Below the pieces are notes generated by a model. It worked only from the letters and a program-made list of their open reading frames with translations. It ran no database searches and was not told the DNA's origin. From Thermaerobacter marianensis DSM 12885 (GTDB taxonomy: Bacteria; Bacillota; Sulfobacillia; Thermaerobacterales; Thermaerobacteraceae), in contig NC_014831.1 in assembly GCF_000184705.1 (NCBI RefSeq), positions 682,001 to 746,000 of the forward strand: a DNA stretch of 64,000 bases, given 5' to 3'. Below are positions 42,555 through 52,290 of this stretch, one piece after another (the stretch's first letter is position 1; the number at the start of each line of letters is the position of its first letter). The translations under genes were made by a program, and so were the position numbers.

Positions 42555-43946
42555 ATGGACCAGCACTGGCGGGGGAACGACCAGCAAGGCCCCCGGCCCG
42601 AAGCCGAGACGCCCCGGGCCGGCGGCAGCGCGCCCCGGCGCCTCAAGCCGCGGCCGCTGGCGGCGCGACCCGTCCGCCTGCGGGCCGCCCGGGCCGGGGG
42701 GCGGCCCACGGGCCCCATCCTTCTGCCGGCCTTGCGGGCGGCGGGCGTCCAGGAGACGGTTCCAGGCGCCGGCCATCGGGGGCCGGCGGACCGGGCGGGT
42801 GACGGCGGCCCGGCGGGTCCTGGCGCCGGCGGTGGCACCGGTGCCGGCGTGGCCGGCGAGACTGGCGCGGTCAACGGGCCCGGTCCCAACCAGAAGGACG
42901 ACATCCGCCAGTCCCTCTGGGTGCGGCGGCCCGACCTCTTCTACGGCAAGCCCAACCGGGGCCACCACTGGGCGGCCTTCGCCGAGCCCCTGGCCCCCGC
43001 CCGAGAGGCGGTCACCGGGCGGGCCGGCGGGACGGCGGCCGGTCCCGGGGCGGTCCGGCCCGCGGCGGGCGACCGCGGTCCGGCGGCAGGGGTGCAGGGG
43101 GATGGCGAAGCCGGCCGTGGAGACGACGATGGGGAAGCTCGCGCTTCCGCCGCACCGGGGGACGACCGGCTGGCCGCCTTGCGCCGGGAAGGGAACCGGC
43201 GGGTTCCCGCCGCCCGCGAGCTGCTGCCGGCCGGGGACCAGGGCGTGCCCGCGGCCGTCGACTACGCCCCGGACCGGCCGGCCGCGGGGCGGGTCGACCG
43301 CCAGGTGGCCGCGCAACTGGCGCGACGGCCCTCGCCGAGCTCCCAGGGACGGCCCATGGCGGCCGGCGGCCGGGCCGATGGGGCCGCCGGTGCGGTCCGC
43401 TGGGAGGCCGCGGCAGAACCCGCGGCGCCGGGAACCGGGCGGGGCGATCCGGCGGCCGACGTGACGGCTCCGGCCGGCCTGAAGCGGCCCGGGACCGGAT
43501 CCGCGGAGGCCCCGTCCGCGGAGACCCCGTCCGGGAGCGCCGGGCCGGCCGGGGCAGGTTCGTCCGACGTGCCGGCGGCCATGGTCCAGGAAGTGGGCGG
43601 CGTGCCGGTGCCCTTGAACCCCACGGCCGCTCTGGAGGTGGCGACCGGCCCCGGCGCGGACCCGGCGGTGCGCGCGAGCCTGGATGCCACCGGGGCGCAG
43701 CGGGTGGAGGCGGCCACGGAGTTGCGCCCCCGGCTGCGGTTGCGGGCGCCCCTGCGCCCGCGGCCGGCGGCGACCGAAGACGACCGCCCCGCGCCGGGCG
43801 TCGACGGCCGGCCGCCGGGCGACCGGTCGACGGATGCCACGGCCCTGACGCGGGGTGCCATCCGGGAGGCCCGGGCGCGCTGGGCCGAACGGGCAGAAGC
43901 CGCCGACGGAAGCGCGGCGCCGGGGGAGGAGGGACCGGCCCGGTAG
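42555..43946 (+). CDS. Long, mostly disordered protein of unknown function
   Basis: 463 aa, dominated by Gly, Ala, Pro and Arg and predicted by eye to be unstructured. Two stretches look like folded or conserved cores: residues about 110-150 (QKDDIRQSLWVRRPDLFYGKPNRGHHWAAF) and about 345-400 (QEVGGVPVPLNPTAALEVATG through LRPRLRLRAPLRPRP). The start ATG has CGGAGGAGCGG at 6-7 bases, and third codon positions are mostly G/C like other genes. The frame therefore seems real, although opposite-strand frames are also open here because of the high GC. No signal peptide or membrane segment. No family recognised. Confidence 0.55.
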   Translation: MDQHWRGNDQQGPRPEAETPRAGGSAPRRLKPRPLAARPVRLRAARAGGRPTGPILLPALRAAGVQETVPGAGHRGPADRAGDGGPAGPGAGGGTGAGVAGETGAVNGPGPNQKDDIRQSLWVRRPDLFYGKPNRGHHWAAFAEPLAPAREAVTGRAGGTAAGPGAVRPAAGDRGPAAGVQGDGEAGRGDDDGEARASAAPGDDRLAALRREGNRRVPAARELLPAGDQGVPAAVDYAPDRPAAGRVDRQVAAQLARRPSPSSQGRPMAAGGRADGAAGAVRWEAAAEPAAPGTGRGDPAADVTAPAGLKRPGTGSAEAPSAETPSGSAGPAGAGSSDVPAAMVQEVGGVPVPLNPTAALEVATGPGADPAVRASLDATGAQRVEAATELRPRLRLRAPLRPRPAATEDDRPAPGVDGRPPGDRSTDATALTRGAIREARARWAERAEAADGSAAPGEEGPAR

Positions 43947-44075
43947 CGAAGCCCGGTAGAGAACCCGACAGAGACATTCCCGGCAGGGAAGCCGGTCACG
44001 ACGTCGGCGGGGCGGCCGGTCGAACGCGGGACGCGGCGGCCACCCCGTGGCCCGGCAGCGAGGTGAGACGGTCCC

Positions 44076-45035
44076 TTGACGGCGGTAGCAGCGGCCGGAT
44101 CGCCGGCCCAGCGCATCCGTGACGCCCTGTGGGGGCTGGCTTGCGGCGAGGCGGTGGGGGTCCGCGCGGCGGGCCCGGCGGCCTTGCGGGCAGGGCCGGT
44201 GGCACGGGAACTGGCCGGCCTGGCCCGGGCCGTCGCGGCGGCGGAGGGGCGGATGGAACCGGGTGGTGACACCCAGGCCGCGGTTGTGCCGGGGGGCGCG
44301 GATCGGGCGAACCCCGCCGCCCGCCTCCGATCCGGCGAAGGCGACGGGGACCGGGCCGAGGCGGCCGGCACCGGGATGCCCCAACCCGATCTGGCCGTGG
44401 CCCTGCGGGCGGTCCTGGCCGGCCTGATCAACCGGCCCGACGACCTGGAATGGCTCATCCAGGACGTCCAGGCCCTGGCCGTTCTGGCGCCGCCTCGTCA
44501 AGGGCCGGTCCCGCCGCCGCCCGCCGCCGCCCTGGCCGCTGCTGCCGCGGTGGCGGCGGCCGTCTCGGCCGCCGTCGAGGGCGGCGACGCCGAATCCGTC
44601 CTGGACCGGGCAGCGGAGGCGGCATCGGTCGCCGTGGACCGGCCGGGCACCGGGCCCGCGTCGTCCGGCGAGGCGGCTGCCGCCGTGGCCCATGCCTTGG
44701 AGACCCTGCGGCTCACCCTGGCCGGCCGCGGCCCGTCGTTGCCGCCCGGCGGGATCGCCGACGTGCTGGCCAGCCGGTGGGAGCCCGAGCCCCGCCCCAG
44801 CCGGGCGGTGCCCTTCGCCCTGGTGCTGGCCGCCGCCGCGGGGGACGCCCGCCGGGCCATCCAGGAGGCCGCCGCCGTCGCCGCCCGGGCGGGCACGGCG
44901 CCGGCCACGGCGGCCGTGGCGGGCGCCGTGGCCGGCGCCCTGTACCCCGGCACGGTTCCTCCGGACTGGGTCGCGGCACTGCGGGACGACCTGGACCTGG
45001 ACGCCCTGGTCCCGGAACTTCTGCGGCTGCGGTAA
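44076..45035 (+). CDS. ADP-ribosylglycohydrolase-like protein lacking metal ligands
   Basis: 319 aa, Ala-rich and helical. The start RIRDALWGLACGEAVG parallels the family GALxGLAxGDALG, MEPGGDTQAAV parallels the usual TDDTQ motif, and GTAPATAAVAGAVAGALYPGTVPPDWVAAL parallels the C-terminal GGDTDTxAAIAGAIAGAxxG...PxxW. The Asp residues that bind the two Mg ions in active DraG-type enzymes are largely missing: GD becomes GE and the DTDT cluster becomes TAPAT. So it is probably catalytically dead, perhaps a binding or regulatory protein. TTG at 44076 has GAGGTGA upstream. It lies 54 bases before a response regulator gene. Confidence 0.6.
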   Translation: MTAVAAAGSPAQRIRDALWGLACGEAVGVRAAGPAALRAGPVARELAGLARAVAAAEGRMEPGGDTQAAVVPGGADRANPAARLRSGEGDGDRAEAAGTGMPQPDLAVALRAVLAGLINRPDDLEWLIQDVQALAVLAPPRQGPVPPPPAAALAAAAAVAAAVSAAVEGGDAESVLDRAAEAASVAVDRPGTGPASSGEAAAAVAHALETLRLTLAGRGPSLPPGGIADVLASRWEPEPRPSRAVPFALVLAAAAGDARRAIQEAAAVAARAGTAPATAAVAGAVAGALYPGTVPPDWVAALRDDLDLDALVPELLRLR

Positions 45036-45089: not shown

Positions 45090-46070
45090 GTGGGCGAGCG
45101 GATCTTGCTGGTGGACGACGAGGCCGCGCTGGTCAAGGGCTTGCGCCGCAGCCTGGAGCAGGCCGGCTTCGAGGTGGAGGTGGCCACCGACGGCCGCCAG
45201 GCCCTGGAACGGTTCGCCGCGGGCGGCATCGACCTCATCATCCTCGATCTCATGCTGCCGGAGATCGACGGCCTGACGGTGTGCCGGGAGGTGCGCAAGA
45301 CCTCCCAGGTGCCCATCATCATGCTGACGGCCCGGGATGAGGACGTCGACCGCATCGTGGGCCTGGAACTGGGCGCCGACGATTACGTGGTGAAGCCCTT
45401 CAACCCGCGGGAGCTCATCGCCCGCATCCGCGCGGTGCTGCGGCGGGTCAAGCCGGCGGGCGGCGTGGCCGTGGGAGTGCCGGTTCATCCCGGGCGGGGG
45501 GTGGCCGTGGCGGGAGGAACCGGCCAGGGGTCGGGCGGGCCGGCCGGAGCCGGGGCCATCCCGGCCGGGGCGGGGGTGCCCGGCGGCGCCACCGCAGCCG
45601 GGGCGGGAGCCGCGGCAGGGGCGGGTGCCGGGGCGGCAGCCGGTGCCGGCGAGGCCGCCGGCCGTCGTACCGGCCGGCCGGACGACGGGGCGGACGATGC
45701 CGACGCCGAGGTGCTGGTGCGCGGGCCGCTGCGCATCGACCGCGCCCGCTACCGGGTGACCCTGCAGGGCCGGCCGCTGGAGCTCACCCCGCGGGAGTTC
45801 GACCTCCTGGTCGTCCTGGCCCGGCGGCCGGGGCGGGTCTTCACCCGCGAGCAGCTTCTGGAGCAGGTCTGGGGCTACGACTACGCCGGCGACACGCGGA
45901 CCGTGGACGTGGCGGTGCGCCGGCTGCGGGAGCGCCTGGAGCCCGATCCCGCCCATCCCGTGTTCGTCCGCACCAAGTGGGGCGTGGGCTATTATTTTGC
46001 CGAGCCGGAAGACATCGCCCGGCGCTTCGGCGGCGAGCCCGCTCCGGGCAGCGGCGCGGGCATGCCGTAG
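45090..46070 (+). CDS. OmpR/PhoB-family response regulator with long Gly/Ala linker
   Basis: 326 aa. Receiver domain 1-120: RILLVDDEAALVKGL with acidic pocket, phosphoacceptor Asp in LIILDLMLPEIDG, then MLTARDE and the Lys in DDYVVKPFNPREL. About 85 residues of Gly/Ala-rich linker follow (near 45465-45705). The winged-helix DNA-binding domain is at about 215-310 (LRIDRARYRVTLQGRPLELTPREFDLLVVLARRPGRVFTREQLLEQVWG, TVDVAVRRLRERLEPDP). The linker in this class is normally under 20 residues. The start GTG has GGGGAGGAGGCGG. It forms a pair with the kinase at 46159. Confidence 0.93.
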   Translation: MGERILLVDDEAALVKGLRRSLEQAGFEVEVATDGRQALERFAAGGIDLIILDLMLPEIDGLTVCREVRKTSQVPIIMLTARDEDVDRIVGLELGADDYVVKPFNPRELIARIRAVLRRVKPAGGVAVGVPVHPGRGVAVAGGTGQGSGGPAGAGAIPAGAGVPGGATAAGAGAAAGAGAGAAAGAGEAAGRRTGRPDDGADDADAEVLVRGPLRIDRARYRVTLQGRPLELTPREFDLLVVLARRPGRVFTREQLLEQVWGYDYAGDTRTVDVAVRRLRERLEPDPAHPVFVRTKWGVGYYFAEPEDIARRFGGEPAPGSGAGMP

Positions 46071-46158: not shown

Positions 46159-48099
46159 TTGTCCCTGCGCTGGAAGATCATCCTGGCGTTGCTGGCCGTC
46201 ACCCTGACCAGCCTGGCCGTCACCGTCCGGGTGGCCAGCGACACGGCCCGGGGCGTGCTCTTGCGGGACCGCCAGTCGCGGGCCCTGGCGACGGCCGCCT
46301 TCTTTGCCGGCAGCCTGGCAGACCCCGTGGCCCGGGGCGACCGGGAGCGCCTGGCCAACCAGATGGCCGCCCTGCGCCTGCAGGAGCTGGGGCGCCTGCT
46401 GGCCCTGGACGAGGCCGGGTTCGTCCTGGCGGACACGGCCGCCGGGACCGACGCCAGCCTGGTCGGCCACCGGCTCCAGCACGTGGAGATCGTCAGCGCC
46501 CTGGAGGGCGTCCCCCGGGCGGGGGTGCGCCGCCTGCCCGACGGCCGCTACGCCATGTACGCCGCCGCGCCGGTGCGGGGGGCGGGCGACCGCGTGGTGG
46601 GGGCGGTGGTGCTGTCCACCGACGTGACCGACGTCTTCGCCGCCGTGGACCAGATCCGCCGCCGCATGGTCCGCCTGGGCGCCCTGATCGCCCTGGGCGC
46701 GGGCACGGTCGCCTACCTCTTCGGCGCCTATCTGGCCGCCCCGTTGCGGGAGCTGGCACGGGCGGCGGGCCGCATCGCCCGCGGCCGGTTCGACGAGCGG
46801 GTGCCGGCCCGGGGCGGGGACGAGCTGGCCCAGCTGGCGCGGGCCTTCAACGACATGGCCGCCCACCTGGCCCGGATCGACGAGTCGCGGCGCGACTTCA
46901 TCGCCAGCGCCTCCCACGAGCTCAGGACCCCCGTGGCCGCCCTCAAGACCCTGACCGACGCCCTCATCCACGACCCCGACGCCACCCTGGAGGACTACCG
47001 CGAGTTCCTCCGCGACATCGACGACCAGGTGGATCGGCTGGCCCGGCTGACGGCGAGCCTCCTCACCCTGGCGCGGCTCGACCGGGAGAAGGAGACGGTG
47101 GACCTGCGCCCCGTGCCCCTGGCCGAGCTGGTGACCACCGTGGTGGGGTGGCTGGAACCCGAGGCGCGCCGGCTGGGGAACCGCTTCCTTGTGGAGGGGC
47201 GCGGCAACCCCCAGGTGCTGGTCGACCGGACCAAGATGGAGCGCGCCCTGACGAACCTGCTGGAGAACGCGATGAAGTACGGCGGGCCGGGCGTGGTCCG
47301 GGTGATCTTCGGCGAGCAGGCGGGCTTCGACGCCGAGGCGGCGGGCCGGGCGCTGGTGGCGGAGCTGGTTCGCGGGGACGAACCGGCCGCGGGGGCTCCC
47401 GGCGCCCCGGCAGCCCCCGGCGCCCAGGGGGTCCCTGCGGCCCCTGGCGCGCCGGAGGGGCCCGGCGCGCCAGGGGGCCCGGGCCGGGACGTCACAGCCG
47501 GGGCCGGGGAGGGCGGTCCGGGTCCGGACGGCGGGCCCGGTGCCGGCGCGGCGGCGGAAGCGGCGGCTGCGGCCGGTGGACCGGCACCGGGCCAGACGGC
47601 CGAGGAGAGCCCCGTACGGGAGGGCCCGGGCGGACCCCGGACGGAGCCGCGATCCGGGGCGGAGGGAACCGGCCCGGCAGGAGCCGGTCTTCCGGCGGAA
47701 CCCCCGCCGGACGGCGAGCTGGCGGAGCCGCCCGCCGAGCCGGCCTATCGCCTCGTCGGCGACGACGACGCCGTGCGCCGCAGCCCGCGGGTCGCCTGGG
47801 TGTGGGTGTTGGACCGGGGCCCCGGCATCCCCGCGGCGGAACTGCCCCACCTGTTCGAGCGGTTCTACCGGGTCGACCGGGTCCGGGCCCGCGGTGGCGA
47901 CGTCGCCGGGGCGGGCCTGGGGCTCAGTATTGTCCGGGAAATCCTCCGGCTGCACGACGGCGTGGTGGCTGTGGCGAGCCAGGTGGGCAAGGGGAGCATC
48001 TTCGCCCTGTACTGGCCGGTGACCGAGTGGCCGTTATCGGGCGGTGGCGCGGCGGCGGAAGCGCAGCGCCCGGCGGGAGGCGGCGCCGCGGCGGGCTGA
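46159..48099 (+). CDS. Sensor histidine kinase with insert in the ATP-binding domain
   Basis: 646 aa. Membrane segment 1 is at about 8-25, an extracytoplasmic sensor region at about 30-165, membrane segment 2 at about 172-192, then a HAMP domain (APLRELARAAGRIARGRFDERV). The H-box FIASASHELRTPVAALK holds the phosphorylated His, N-box LTNLLENAMKYGG and G boxes VLDRGPGIP and AGLGLSIVREILRLHDG follow. About 125 Gly/Ala/Pro-rich residues are inserted between N-box and G1 (near 47340-47750), with the word GGACGAACC at 47376. The start is TTG at 46159. PhoR/WalK-like layout; signal unknown. Confidence 0.92.
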   Translation: MSLRWKIILALLAVTLTSLAVTVRVASDTARGVLLRDRQSRALATAAFFAGSLADPVARGDRERLANQMAALRLQELGRLLALDEAGFVLADTAAGTDASLVGHRLQHVEIVSALEGVPRAGVRRLPDGRYAMYAAAPVRGAGDRVVGAVVLSTDVTDVFAAVDQIRRRMVRLGALIALGAGTVAYLFGAYLAAPLRELARAAGRIARGRFDERVPARGGDELAQLARAFNDMAAHLARIDESRRDFIASASHELRTPVAALKTLTDALIHDPDATLEDYREFLRDIDDQVDRLARLTASLLTLARLDREKETVDLRPVPLAELVTTVVGWLEPEARRLGNRFLVEGRGNPQVLVDRTKMERALTNLLENAMKYGGPGVVRVIFGEQAGFDAEAAGRALVAELVRGDEPAAGAPGAPAAPGAQGVPAAPGAPEGPGAPGGPGRDVTAGAGEGGPGPDGGPGAGAAAEAAAAAGGPAPGQTAEESPVREGPGGPRTEPRSGAEGTGPAGAGLPAEPPPDGELAEPPAEPAYRLVGDDDAVRRSPRVAWVWVLDRGPGIPAAELPHLFERFYRVDRVRARGGDVAGAGLGLSIVREILRLHDGVVAVASQVGKGSIFALYWPVTEWPLSGGGAAAEAQRPAGGGAAAG

Positions 48100-48946: not shown

Positions 48947-50458
48947 GTGTCCAGCGGCGACTCTTTTTTCCGTGCTTGGCGAAGCCTGTCGCACCGGCGG
49001 CACGCCCTTCCGGTGCCGGCGGCCGGGGTCGCCCCGCCCCTCGCCGCGCCGCCCGGCGGACGGCGCCGCCGGACGAACCCGGCCCGCTCGCCGGCGGCCC
49101 TGGTCGCCGCCCTGCTGCTGCTGGCCCTGGTGCTGGCGGCCTGCGGTGAGGCCGGGGTAACGGGCGGCAGCAACGAGCTGGTCATCGCTCCGGATGGAGC
49201 CGGTGCCCAGGACGGCCTCCCGGCGGCGTCCGCCGACCTCGAGGGGACGCCGGCCATCGTACCGAACCCCGGTGACGAGCGCGTCACCATCACCCTCTTC
49301 TTCGGCTCCCGGTCCGGCCTGCTGGATCCCTGGCCCTGGCGGCGTACCGTCGACCGCCCCCAGCGCACGGCGGACCTGGCCCGGATCGCCGTGGAGAACC
49401 TGCTGGATCCTCCCCCGAACTCGCCCTTCGTGTCCGTTTTGCCCAGGGGGACGCGGATCCTGTCCGTCTCCGTGGACGACAGCCAGCAGACGGCCTACGT
49501 CAACTTTTCCGAGGAGTTCGTCAAGAACCATCCCGGCGGCAGCTACGGCGAGGCCGTGACGATCCACGCCATCGTCCAGACCCTGACGGGCATCCCCGGC
49601 ATCCGCCGCGTGCAGATCCTCGTCGAAGGCAAGCCGGTGGAGACCCTGGCGGGGCACATCGCCATCGACCAGCCCCTGGAGCGGCTGCTCATCGTGCCCG
49701 GTCCGGTGCCCCAGGGCGCCGTGCCGGGGCCGGCCGCGGCGGACGAACCGGCCGGCGCGGCCGGCTCCGGGGCGGCCGGCGCCGAAGGCGGCGCCGGCGG
49801 GGCCGCTTCGTCCGGGTCCGCCGGCGGGGACGCCGGCTGGACGCCCTGGCAGATGGAGAGGGACGACGCGGTGATGAACTTCTTCCAGGGCGAAGTGGAG
49901 CAGGGGCGGATGCAGTGGCTCACGGACCCGGTGGAAGCGGCGCGGTACCTGGCCACCACCTACGGGTTCTACGGCTGGGACGAGTACGTGCTGCTCTACC
50001 GCACCGACCGCGGTGAGGGGTCCGGCCTGGGCGAGGCGCTGGTGCGGGTGCGCCACGGCGACAGCTACTACACCCTGCACATGATCCAGCCCCGGGAGCA
50101 GGGCGACCAGGGCATCTGGGTGATCCACGACATCCGGTCCCGGGCGGTGCAGACGGGCCGCAAGCCGGTGGACCCCGAACTGGTGCAGGGCTGGCAGCAG
50201 GAAGTGGACAACGGCGCCAATCTATGGCGGCTCGACCCGGTGGACACCGTCCGGCGCCAGGGCGGGCTCTATGGGTTCGACCCGTACAGCGACGAGTACA
50301 CCCTGGTGGAGATGGATCTGTCCCGCGGCCAGGCCCTGGTGCGGGTGAAGCACGACGGCCTGGACTACGAGGTGGTCCTGGTCCAGCCGGTGCGCCGGGG
50401 CGAGAAGGGCGTCTGGTGGATCGACACCGTCCGCTTCGGTACGGAGGCGACGTCGTAG
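48947..50458 (+). CDS. GerM-domain lipoprotein with duplicated C-terminal module
   Basis: 503 aa. An Arg-rich leader of about 45 residues precedes a hydrophobic signal ending LVLAAC, so Cys near position 66 should be lipidated. A GerMN domain follows (about 110-240: ITLFFGSRSGLL, RILSVSVDDSQQTAYVNFSEEFVKNHPGG, VQTLTGIPGIRRVQILVEGKPVETLAGH). By family knowledge GerM acts in sporulation and spore germination. After a Gly/Ala insert, residues about 305-503 hold two similar copies of a module with WxxDPVxxxR, YGF, DEYxL, GxALVRV and GxWxIxxIR. The start GTG has GAGGGGAGG upstream. Confidence 0.85.
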   Translation: MSSGDSFFRAWRSLSHRRHALPVPAAGVAPPLAAPPGGRRRRTNPARSPAALVAALLLLALVLAACGEAGVTGGSNELVIAPDGAGAQDGLPAASADLEGTPAIVPNPGDERVTITLFFGSRSGLLDPWPWRRTVDRPQRTADLARIAVENLLDPPPNSPFVSVLPRGTRILSVSVDDSQQTAYVNFSEEFVKNHPGGSYGEAVTIHAIVQTLTGIPGIRRVQILVEGKPVETLAGHIAIDQPLERLLIVPGPVPQGAVPGPAAADEPAGAAGSGAAGAEGGAGGAASSGSAGGDAGWTPWQMERDDAVMNFFQGEVEQGRMQWLTDPVEAARYLATTYGFYGWDEYVLLYRTDRGEGSGLGEALVRVRHGDSYYTLHMIQPREQGDQGIWVIHDIRSRAVQTGRKPVDPELVQGWQQEVDNGANLWRLDPVDTVRRQGGLYGFDPYSDEYTLVEMDLSRGQALVRVKHDGLDYEVVLVQPVRRGEKGVWWIDTVRFGTEATS

Positions 50459-50862: not shown

Positions 50863-51336
50863 CGTCGCCACCTCCCTCCTCGTGGGTTAGAGTCCAAACA
50901 GGTTTTGACTCCAGCCTTGCGTCCGGGGATGTCCACGGTCGCTCGCCCACCCCAGGCGACGGGAAGGCCGGCCGCCGCCCGGGCGCGGCCCGGGCCGGCC
51001 TCCTGCCACGAACGTATGCCGGTTCGTCAGGAAAGGTCAAAGCCGGGCGGATTCGCATAGCACAGTTCGGCCGAGTTCGCAAATCCGGATCACAAAAAAT
51101 GCATGGCGAAATCTCCTCCGATCTCGCCAAATCGAAGAAATTCAATCTATATCACCGACTTGTCCCGGGTCGCGCGCGGGCTGAGGCGGGTTCGGCAGGA
51201 CCGCCGGGAGGGGAGACAACCCGGCCCAGCGGGGCAGGATTGGGGTGGCCAGCGCAGAATACGTCCAGGCATGGCGAATGTCTGTTCCCCGGACCTTGCG
51301 TCGGATGCCGTACCAATCCGGATGGGAGGGAATGCC
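50863..51336. other. Divergent intergenic region
   Basis: 470 bases between the GlsB-like gene (minus) and the DUF1028 gene (plus). It includes a GC-rich dyad at about 50966-51002 and an AT-rich stretch at 51060-51160 with TGGCGA/TCGCCA around 51105-51130 and TATATC at 51148-51153, probably the plus-strand promoter zone. No coding frame is supported upstream of 51337. Confidence 0.55.
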
Positions 51337-52290
51337 GTGAACGACCGGGCGGGCTTCCGCGGCCGGGTGTGGGCACCCGGCGGCGCGCCGTGGGTTGCGA
51401 CCTTTTCCATCGTGGCCGCCGACCCCGAAGCGGGGATCTGGGGCATCGGCGTCCAGTCCAAGTTCCTCGCCGTGGGCGCGGTGGTGCCGTGGGCTGAGGC
51501 GGGCACCGGCGCCGTGGCGACCCAGGCCTGGGCCAACGTCTCGTACGGCCCCGAGGGCCTGGCGCTGCTGCGCCAGGGGCTCTCGGCGGAAGAGGTGGTG
51601 GCCCGGCTGGTGGAAGCCGACCCGGACCGGGATCACCGGCAGCTGGGCGTGGTCGATGCCCAGGGGCGGGCGGCCGCCTACACGGGCAAGGCGTGCTTCG
51701 AGTGGGCGGGGCACCGGGTGGGGCCGGGCTACGCGTGCCAGGGGAACATCCTGGCCGGCCCGGCCGTGGTCGACCACATGGCCCGGGCCTATGAGGCCGC
51801 TCGCGACCGCGGGCTGCCCATGGAGGAGCGCTTGATCGAGGCCCTGCGGGCGGCCCAGGCGGAGGGCGGCGACCGCCGCGGCCAGCAGTCGGCGGCGCTG
51901 CTGGTGGTCAAGCCCAGGGGCGGCTACGGCGGCTACAACGACCGCTGGCTCGACCTGCGGGTCGACGACCACCCCCGGCCCATCGAGGAACTGGACCGCC
52001 TGATGCGGCTGCACCGGCTGTACTTCGGTACGCCCGACCCCGCCCGGCGCGTGCGCCTGGAGGGCCCGGTGGTGGAGGAAGTCCAGCGCCTGTTGCAGGC
52101 GACGGGCTACTACGACGGGCCCGTCACCGGGCAGGTGGACGAGGCCACCCGTCAGGCCCTCCGCACCTTCCAGCTGAACGAGAACTTCGAGGAGCGCGAG
52201 GTGGGGGACGAGGTCATCGACGGGGACGTGCTGGACTACCTGCGCTCCCTGGCCCGGCGGCAGCCGGCCGGTGGCGAGGCGGCGACGTGA
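51337..52290 (+). CDS. DUF1028 (Ntn-hydrolase-like) protein with C-terminal peptidoglycan-binding domain
   Basis: 317 aa. Residues about 10-225 match DUF1028: TFSIVAADPEAGIWGIGVQSKFLAVGAVVPWAEAGTGAVATQAWANVSYGPEGLALL, DRDHRQLGVVDAQGRAAAYTG, GYACQGNILAGPAVVDHMARA and GGDRRGQQSAALLVV. Residues about 248-300 form a peptidoglycan-binding-1 type helix bundle (VVEEVQRLLQATGYYDGPVTGQVDEATRQALRTFQ). Thr at the start of TFS could be the N-terminal nucleophile if processed, which is inference. The start GTG at 51337 has GGGAGGG 6 bases upstream. Its stop overlaps the YcaQ-like gene. Confidence 0.87.
   Translation: MNDRAGFRGRVWAPGGAPWVATFSIVAADPEAGIWGIGVQSKFLAVGAVVPWAEAGTGAVATQAWANVSYGPEGLALLRQGLSAEEVVARLVEADPDRDHRQLGVVDAQGRAAAYTGKACFEWAGHRVGPGYACQGNILAGPAVVDHMARAYEAARDRGLPMEERLIEALRAAQAEGGDRRGQQSAALLVVKPRGGYGGYNDRWLDLRVDDHPRPIEELDRLMRLHRLYFGTPDPARRVRLEGPVVEEVQRLLQATGYYDGPVTGQVDEATRQALRTFQLNENFEEREVGDEVIDGDVLDYLRSLARRQPAGGEAAT

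Follow-up and report, generated by a model that had tools for sequence, protein, structure and literature searches.

Active ADP-ribosylhydrolases (ARHs) are described as holding two divalent cations by means of two aspartate pairs (PMC7390403). A pseudoenzyme of the ARH family as such is already known, viz. ADPRHL1 (ARH2) of the vertebrate heart, for which a loss of aspartates and a non-catalytic role are reported (PMC7390403), and ARH2 is also named as suspected to be inactive in PMC7050489. In the open-licence literature, searched by title and abstract opening, no bacterial pseudo-ARH was found, nor one located beside a two-component system. YycH and YycI are accessory proteins of WalRK-type systems that are encoded with an OmpR-type response regulator and a HAMP kinase. 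To our knowledge, neither these two proteins nor LpqB are ARH-fold proteins. LpqB is encoded with a regulator and a kinase of the same types in the mtrAB/lpqB operon (PMC3262814).

In the present work, we have analysed a window of 64,000 nucleotides (the whole stretch of DNA under study) from Thermaerobacter marianensis and compared one of its genes across four Thermaerobacter genomes (G000–G003, where G000 is the genome of T. marianensis that contains the window) and a genome from another genus of the same bacterial family (G004). Orthologues of the gene are present in all 5 of these family genomes. Our analyses suggest that it is probably a pseudo-ARH, which would have lost the two-metal hydrolase site and then been held by purifying selection for a non-catalytic job. 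It is best read in this manner, and not as a decaying relic, because of the loss of the ligands on a long stem, the later purifying selection and the ARH fold that is obtained when the protein is modelled. The gene and its neighbors are summarized in Table 1; the coordinates given for the gene in the earlier note were correct, and the frame has a TTG start that follows GAGGTGAG.

Table 1. Positions in the window of the putative pseudo-ARH gene, of its altered motifs and of the adjacent two-component genes
Feature	Coordinates	Strand	Basis
Putative pseudo-ADP-ribosylhydrolase, 319 aa	44076..45035	+	Sequence, profile, tree and model evidence
Ribosome-binding site GAGGTGAG ahead of TTG start	44060..44067	+	Identical GAGGTGAG before TTG in G001, G002, G003
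GEAVG, residues 24-28, counterpart of GDALG; Asp to Glu in 4/4 genus proteins	44145..44159	+	Alignment
GPVA, residues 40-43, at the place of SDDT; neither metal-ligand Asp remains (P, and V/A/L)	44193..44204	+	Alignment
GGDTQ, residues 63-67; not the SDDT counterpart, not conserved in genus	44262..44276	+	Alignment
Pro147 replacing invariant His	44514..44516	+	Alignment
GTAPAT, residues 273-278, at the place of GGDADS; neither C-terminal metal-ligand Asp remains	44892..44909	+	Alignment
Response regulator, receiver + Trans_reg_C, long linker between domains	45090..46070	+	Pfam
Histidine kinase, HAMP-HisKA-HATPase_c, Gly/Pro-rich insert in ATPase domain	46159..48099	+	Pfam

The genome of T. marianensis 7p75 has a GC content of 72.5% (PMC3035304), and at this composition long open frames are seen on both strands. 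The coding status of the gene hence needed other proof and, as open frames are cheap in such DNA, our argument leans on the patterns of substitution among the four genomes. An alternative to a retained pseudoenzyme is that the gene is a decaying relic, viz. an ARH that lost its use in the genus and still awaits removal, with its frame kept open by the GC-rich DNA. The loss of the metal site, the varying length of the loops and the stretches rich in Ala, Gly and Pro speak for such decay, but internal stop codons are absent from the gene in 4/4 genus genomes, all of which also retain the TTG start codon and the ribosome-binding site.

The description of the protein as ARH-like in the earlier note was borne out with regard to descent, which is supported by the G004 orthologue and by profile-profile comparison, but the window protein alone gives only sub-threshold matches. 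These are with Pfam PF03747 (ADP-ribosylglycohydrolase; 12.8 bits, E 0.097, cut-off 26.2), NCBIfam DRAG (TIGR02662; 16.4 bits, E 0.0041, cut-off 337.05), a PHROG ARH family (14.9 bits) and, in the PDB, 3g9d (E 0.05). No match was obtained when the four genus genomes were searched with PF03747 at E up to 0.001, or when the other three genus proteins were compared with it at E up to 10. The G004 orthologue, which is the closest intact relative found (51% identity to the window protein over residues 49-319), matches PF03747 above the curated cut-off (147 bits, E 1.2e-42) and, in the PDB, MJ1187 (E 1.5e-14) and DraG (E 2.6e-11). Its GDALG, SDDT and GGDADS motifs are intact, and in the alignments with the MJ1187/DraG matches SDDT pairs with TDDT, and GGDADS with GGDTDS and GGDADT. 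When the four genus proteins were aligned as a profile with 12 intact ARHs (G004 excluded) using hhalign, a probability of 96% was obtained over 181 columns, covering the C-terminal part only, with an E of 4.8e-9 that is to be read with reserve because the sequences are Ala-rich; the profile of the genus proteins matched 3g9d in the PDB at only E 0.07. A first search of the genome contigs found no relative, and a second one, made with alignment A1, gave at least 4 distant relatives among the matches listed.

In a tree of 19 rows, the genus proteins (support 100/100) branch together with G004 (99/96) and next to the intact ARHs of G020 and G150 (94/95), which would place the window protein inside the intact ARHs, with the caveat that 7 of the 19 rows, including all four genus rows, are of unusual letter composition. 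The stem of the genus measures 1.01 per column, the G004 branch 0.21 and the branches inside the genus 0.02-0.31. Near the intact ARH of G020 there is also a second ARH-like fragment (G020:C1:233733-233984) with two stop codons.

The residues of the metal site were compared by reference to 14 columns that are invariant in 13 intact ARHs and are mapped here through the numbering of G004, a mapping that depends on alignment A1. D12, D56, D57, H149, D271, and D273 are replaced in all four genus proteins, i.e. both pairs of metal-ligand aspartates, the aspartate of GDALG and the histidine are gone, and the near-invariant glutamate (E19 of G004) stands opposite a gap in each of them. G11, A13, G15, G280, and P292 are retained in all four, and T58, R121, and G117 are partly kept (Thr in 2/4, Arg in 2/4 and Gly in 1/4, respectively). 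The replacement of the metal ligands that was noticed earlier in the window protein holds for all four aspartates in each of the four genus proteins. Two of the three motifs on which that observation was based, GEAVG and GTAPAT, do align with GDALG and GGDADS; the third, GGDTQ, does not correspond to SDDT, whose place is taken by GPVA.

GGDTQ was ruled out as the SDDT counterpart by an anchor held in common with G004 (LAR...EGR), which puts SDDT at residues 40-43, and the motif is also missing from the three other genus proteins. When the window protein was aligned by MAFFT with only remote ARHs (A3), D65 from the GGDTQ motif fell into an invariant column, matching the earlier view, and we regard this placement as wrong because the close orthologues show otherwise. 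For the same reason, row 1 of the alignment that was supplied to the structure predictor is probably misplaced at GGDTQ.

None of the genus orthologues carries an intact metal site that aligns differently, and in G004, the only close orthologue whose site is intact, the alignment falls on the same positions, indicating that the site was lost. That the protein is a catalytically dead ARH is well supported at the sequence level by the ligand loss, G004, the tree and the hhalign comparison. A protein that is still a hydrolase, with its metal site rebuilt or with a mechanism that needs no metal, is exceedingly improbable: an acid is retained in GEAVG (Glu25) and the protein has further acidic residues, but four ligand aspartates from two separate blocks, the histidine and the near-invariant glutamate are gone in 4/4 proteins, and residues 59-100 of the predicted model fall below pLDDT 50. 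A sensor of ADP-ribose or a nucleotide, in which catalysis was lost and ligand binding kept, would be compatible with the ARH fold, but the invariant G117 and R121 are kept in only 1/4 and 2/4 of the genus proteins and none of the four has the TH pair, making this explanation very unlikely.

Structure prediction from the single sequence was poor (pLDDT 42.3), and a model made with an alignment of 31 ARH homologues reached a mean pLDDT of 76.0 and a pTM of 0.78. In the PDB, Foldseek matched the latter model to 7 entries (E up to 0.001), exclusively ARHs, with loose superpositions (TM about 0.5-0.6). In VIA-align, ranks 1-26 are occupied by ARHs with Z of about 21-24 (viz. human ARH3, 24.4; MJ1187, 23.4; DraG (2woc), 21.9; and DraG in the GlnZ complex, 21.3); chains from large assemblies are also found (Orf2971-FtsHi motor complex, 21.2; Ycf2-FtsHi, 19.6; and the mitoribosomal small-subunit entries 9hny, 18.5, and 6sga, 17.2), after which Z drops to 6.3. 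The window protein is thus predicted to take the ARH fold when it is modelled with an ARH alignment, and the resemblance to DraG that had been anticipated is seen in this model, the single-sequence model having failed. As the input alignment was made of ARHs, the model displays a fit to the ARH fold and not an independent discovery of it.

Evidence on what happened after the ligands were lost is provided by the substitutions within the genus. In the closest pair (G001-G002), both members of which are already ligand-free, dS is 0.17, dN is 0.026 and dN/dS is 0.154, with 10/8/41 differences at the three codon positions. The dN/dS for G000-G003 is 0.287, and between the two sub-clades of the genus it is 0.37-0.41, which represents moderate constraint and counts in favor of a relic; the intact outgroup pair G020-G150 gives 0.26. 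In neutral simulations built on the four-fold-site spectrum, the observed non-synonymous fraction was below all 300 simulated values in each of the three pseudo-ARH pairs (0.280 for G001-G002 vs. a lowest simulated value of 0.588). The same test also gave 0/300 for four other genes, including the weakly constrained upstream ORF, and since every gene and pair tested gave this result, the test excludes full neutrality only. For comparison, the G000-G001 values for the neighboring genes, which are rough as they are derived from stop-to-stop frames, are 0.114 (regulator), 0.206 (kinase), 0.276 (Germane protein), and 0.383 (upstream ORF). For G001-G002 some of these values are high (regulator, 0.525; upstream ORF, 0.497; phosphoribosyltransferase, 0.396; and kinase, 0.345), which is probably due in part to a frame break in the G002 regulator, over-extended frames and low-complexity inserts.

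Identity was also compared along the protein. Over residues 1-118 of G004, the genus proteins share 29-32% identity with G004 vs. 42-44% for the two intact outgroups, and over residues 119-319 they share 52-53% vs. 45-46%. Constraint has, on these identities, moved within the protein, with the C-terminal part closer to G004 than the outgroups are, and the branch lengths of the tree agree with a burst of change on the stem followed by slowing. Together these observations indicate that purifying selection on the gene continued after the loss of the ligands and that it is kept for something. With a dN/dS of 0.15 between two ligand-free sequences, none of 300 neutral simulations reaching down to the observed value in any of the three pairs, and a C-terminal half nearer to G004 than that of intact outgroups, a decaying relic is unlikely.

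The presence of a response regulator and a histidine kinase downstream of the gene, already noticed before, was confirmed (Table 1). The best partial NCBIfam matches of the regulator are YycF and MtrA and those of the kinase are WalK and PnpS; all of these are below the cut-offs, and the two proteins are hence not named further. The linker between the two regulator domains comprises about 110 residues, mostly Gly/Ala/Pro-rich, and is of different length in G002 and G003, and in the kinase an insert of roughly 150 residues splits the match to the ATPase domain. In the G002 regulator gene (L050, 2845-3131), the DNA-binding domain matches in two pieces in different frames, due either to a real frameshift or to an assembly error. 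Relatives of the upstream ORF (42555-43946) occur in G001, G002 and G003; this ORF matches no Pfam family and is weakly constrained (dN/dS 0.36-0.50); the contig of G004 is too short to reach the corresponding position. A Germane-domain protein (48947-50458), located two genes past the kinase, recalls the mtrAB-lpqB gene order of Actinobacteria, where LpqB carries a Germane domain, and at 51103-52290 a DUF1028 protein is fused to a peptidoglycan-binding domain. A search for DRAT gave a match in 0/7 genomes, the control genomes being silent too, and in a search for macrodomains G001-G003 were matched weakly (26-27.5 bits), G020 and G150 strongly and G000 and G004 not at all.

The pseudo-ARH gene ends 54 bp before the regulator gene, and in 5/5 family genomes an ARH gene directly precedes the regulator with a gap of 48-129 bp, a conserved placement that is informative for the single comparison with G004 only, as the other 4 genomes belong to one genus. 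The contig of G004 starts 15 bases before its ARH, and the same two genes come after this ARH: the regulator, whose receiver shows 94% identity across 119 residues, and the kinase, with 76% identity across 380. Among 63 loci examined, this regulator or kinase was seen in just 6, all of them from the family, and among 25 further loci in none (0/25); these loci came from 154 genomes of the class and 398 of the phylum, and most of the flanks are about 1.5 kb in length. Between 42300 and 48500, no promoter-like sites were found (0.1 expected), and the 3 terminator-like sites are all on the - strand, with none between the ARH and the regulator. Given the 54 bp spacing and the lack of a terminator-like site in between, the pseudo-ARH is probably co-transcribed with the regulator and the kinase.

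The succession of events can be read from the intact orthologue at the same locus in the sister genus: an enzyme beside the two-component system, the loss of its site and then renewed constraint. By parsimony, an ARH-fold protein would have lost its two-metal site once, and with it hydrolysis, before the sampled Thermaerobacter species diverged, and the gene would then have been kept under purifying selection for a non-catalytic function. The protein now probably works by binding and not by catalysis, since its metal-holding residues are lost, it is still under selection and its gene lies directly before the sensor-regulator genes; it would most likely be a protein-binding scaffold or adaptor acting through the conserved C-terminal helices.

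The binding partner may be the regulator or the kinase, as proposed in the earlier note, and this is the weakest step of the proposed mechanism. A dead ARH that binds one of them and tunes signalling, and so serves the adjacent two-component system as its own regulator, would be a special case of the pseudoenzyme reading and is a tentative possibility. It draws on the position directly upstream of the regulator in all the family genomes, on the restriction of this arrangement to the loci of the family and on the precedent of DraG itself being bound by the PII signalling protein GlnK/GlnZ (PMC7050489), but adjacency is its support, 4/5 of the genomes are from one genus and most other flanks are short (about 1.5 kb). 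The fuller scenario, in which an ARH that was already beside the two-component system in the ancestor of the family lost catalysis on the Thermaerobacter stem and became a cytoplasmic adaptor of the kinase or regulator, is rather doubtful; if true, it would represent, within the reach of our searches, the first case of an ARH-fold protein that became an accessory factor of a two-component system. The non-catalytic role of a retained pseudo-ARH could be tested by a comparison of the live ARH of G004 with its dead counterpart, as both stand next to the same regulator.

In its sequence features the window protein fits the ARH-pseudoenzyme kind, with ARH ancestry, catalytic residues lost and a sequence that is still constrained. 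It resembles ADPRHL1 in its ARH descent, the loss of the metal-holding aspartates and the retention of the protein, probably in a non-catalytic role; however, ADPRHL1 is a vertebrate protein whose mammalian form is reported to have lost 3/4 critical aspartates (PMC7390403), whereas the window protein has lost 4/4, and the two are compared as a kind and not as a clade. With DraG it shares the predicted fold (2woc, Z 21.9) and a bacterial origin, and DraG is described as docking on GlnK/GlnZ (PMC7050489); in contrast, DraG is a working metalloenzyme that forms a pair with DraT (PMC7050489), and the window protein lacks the site and scores 16.4 against the DRAG cut-off of 337.05. YycH, YycI and LpqB are likewise encoded beside an OmpR-type regulator and a HAMP kinase, the difference being that the pseudo-ARH gene precedes the regulator. 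A further comparison is with the intact ARH of G004, which likewise precedes this regulator and kinase and shares 52-53% identity over residues 119-319 with the genus proteins, but whose metal-site residues are intact.
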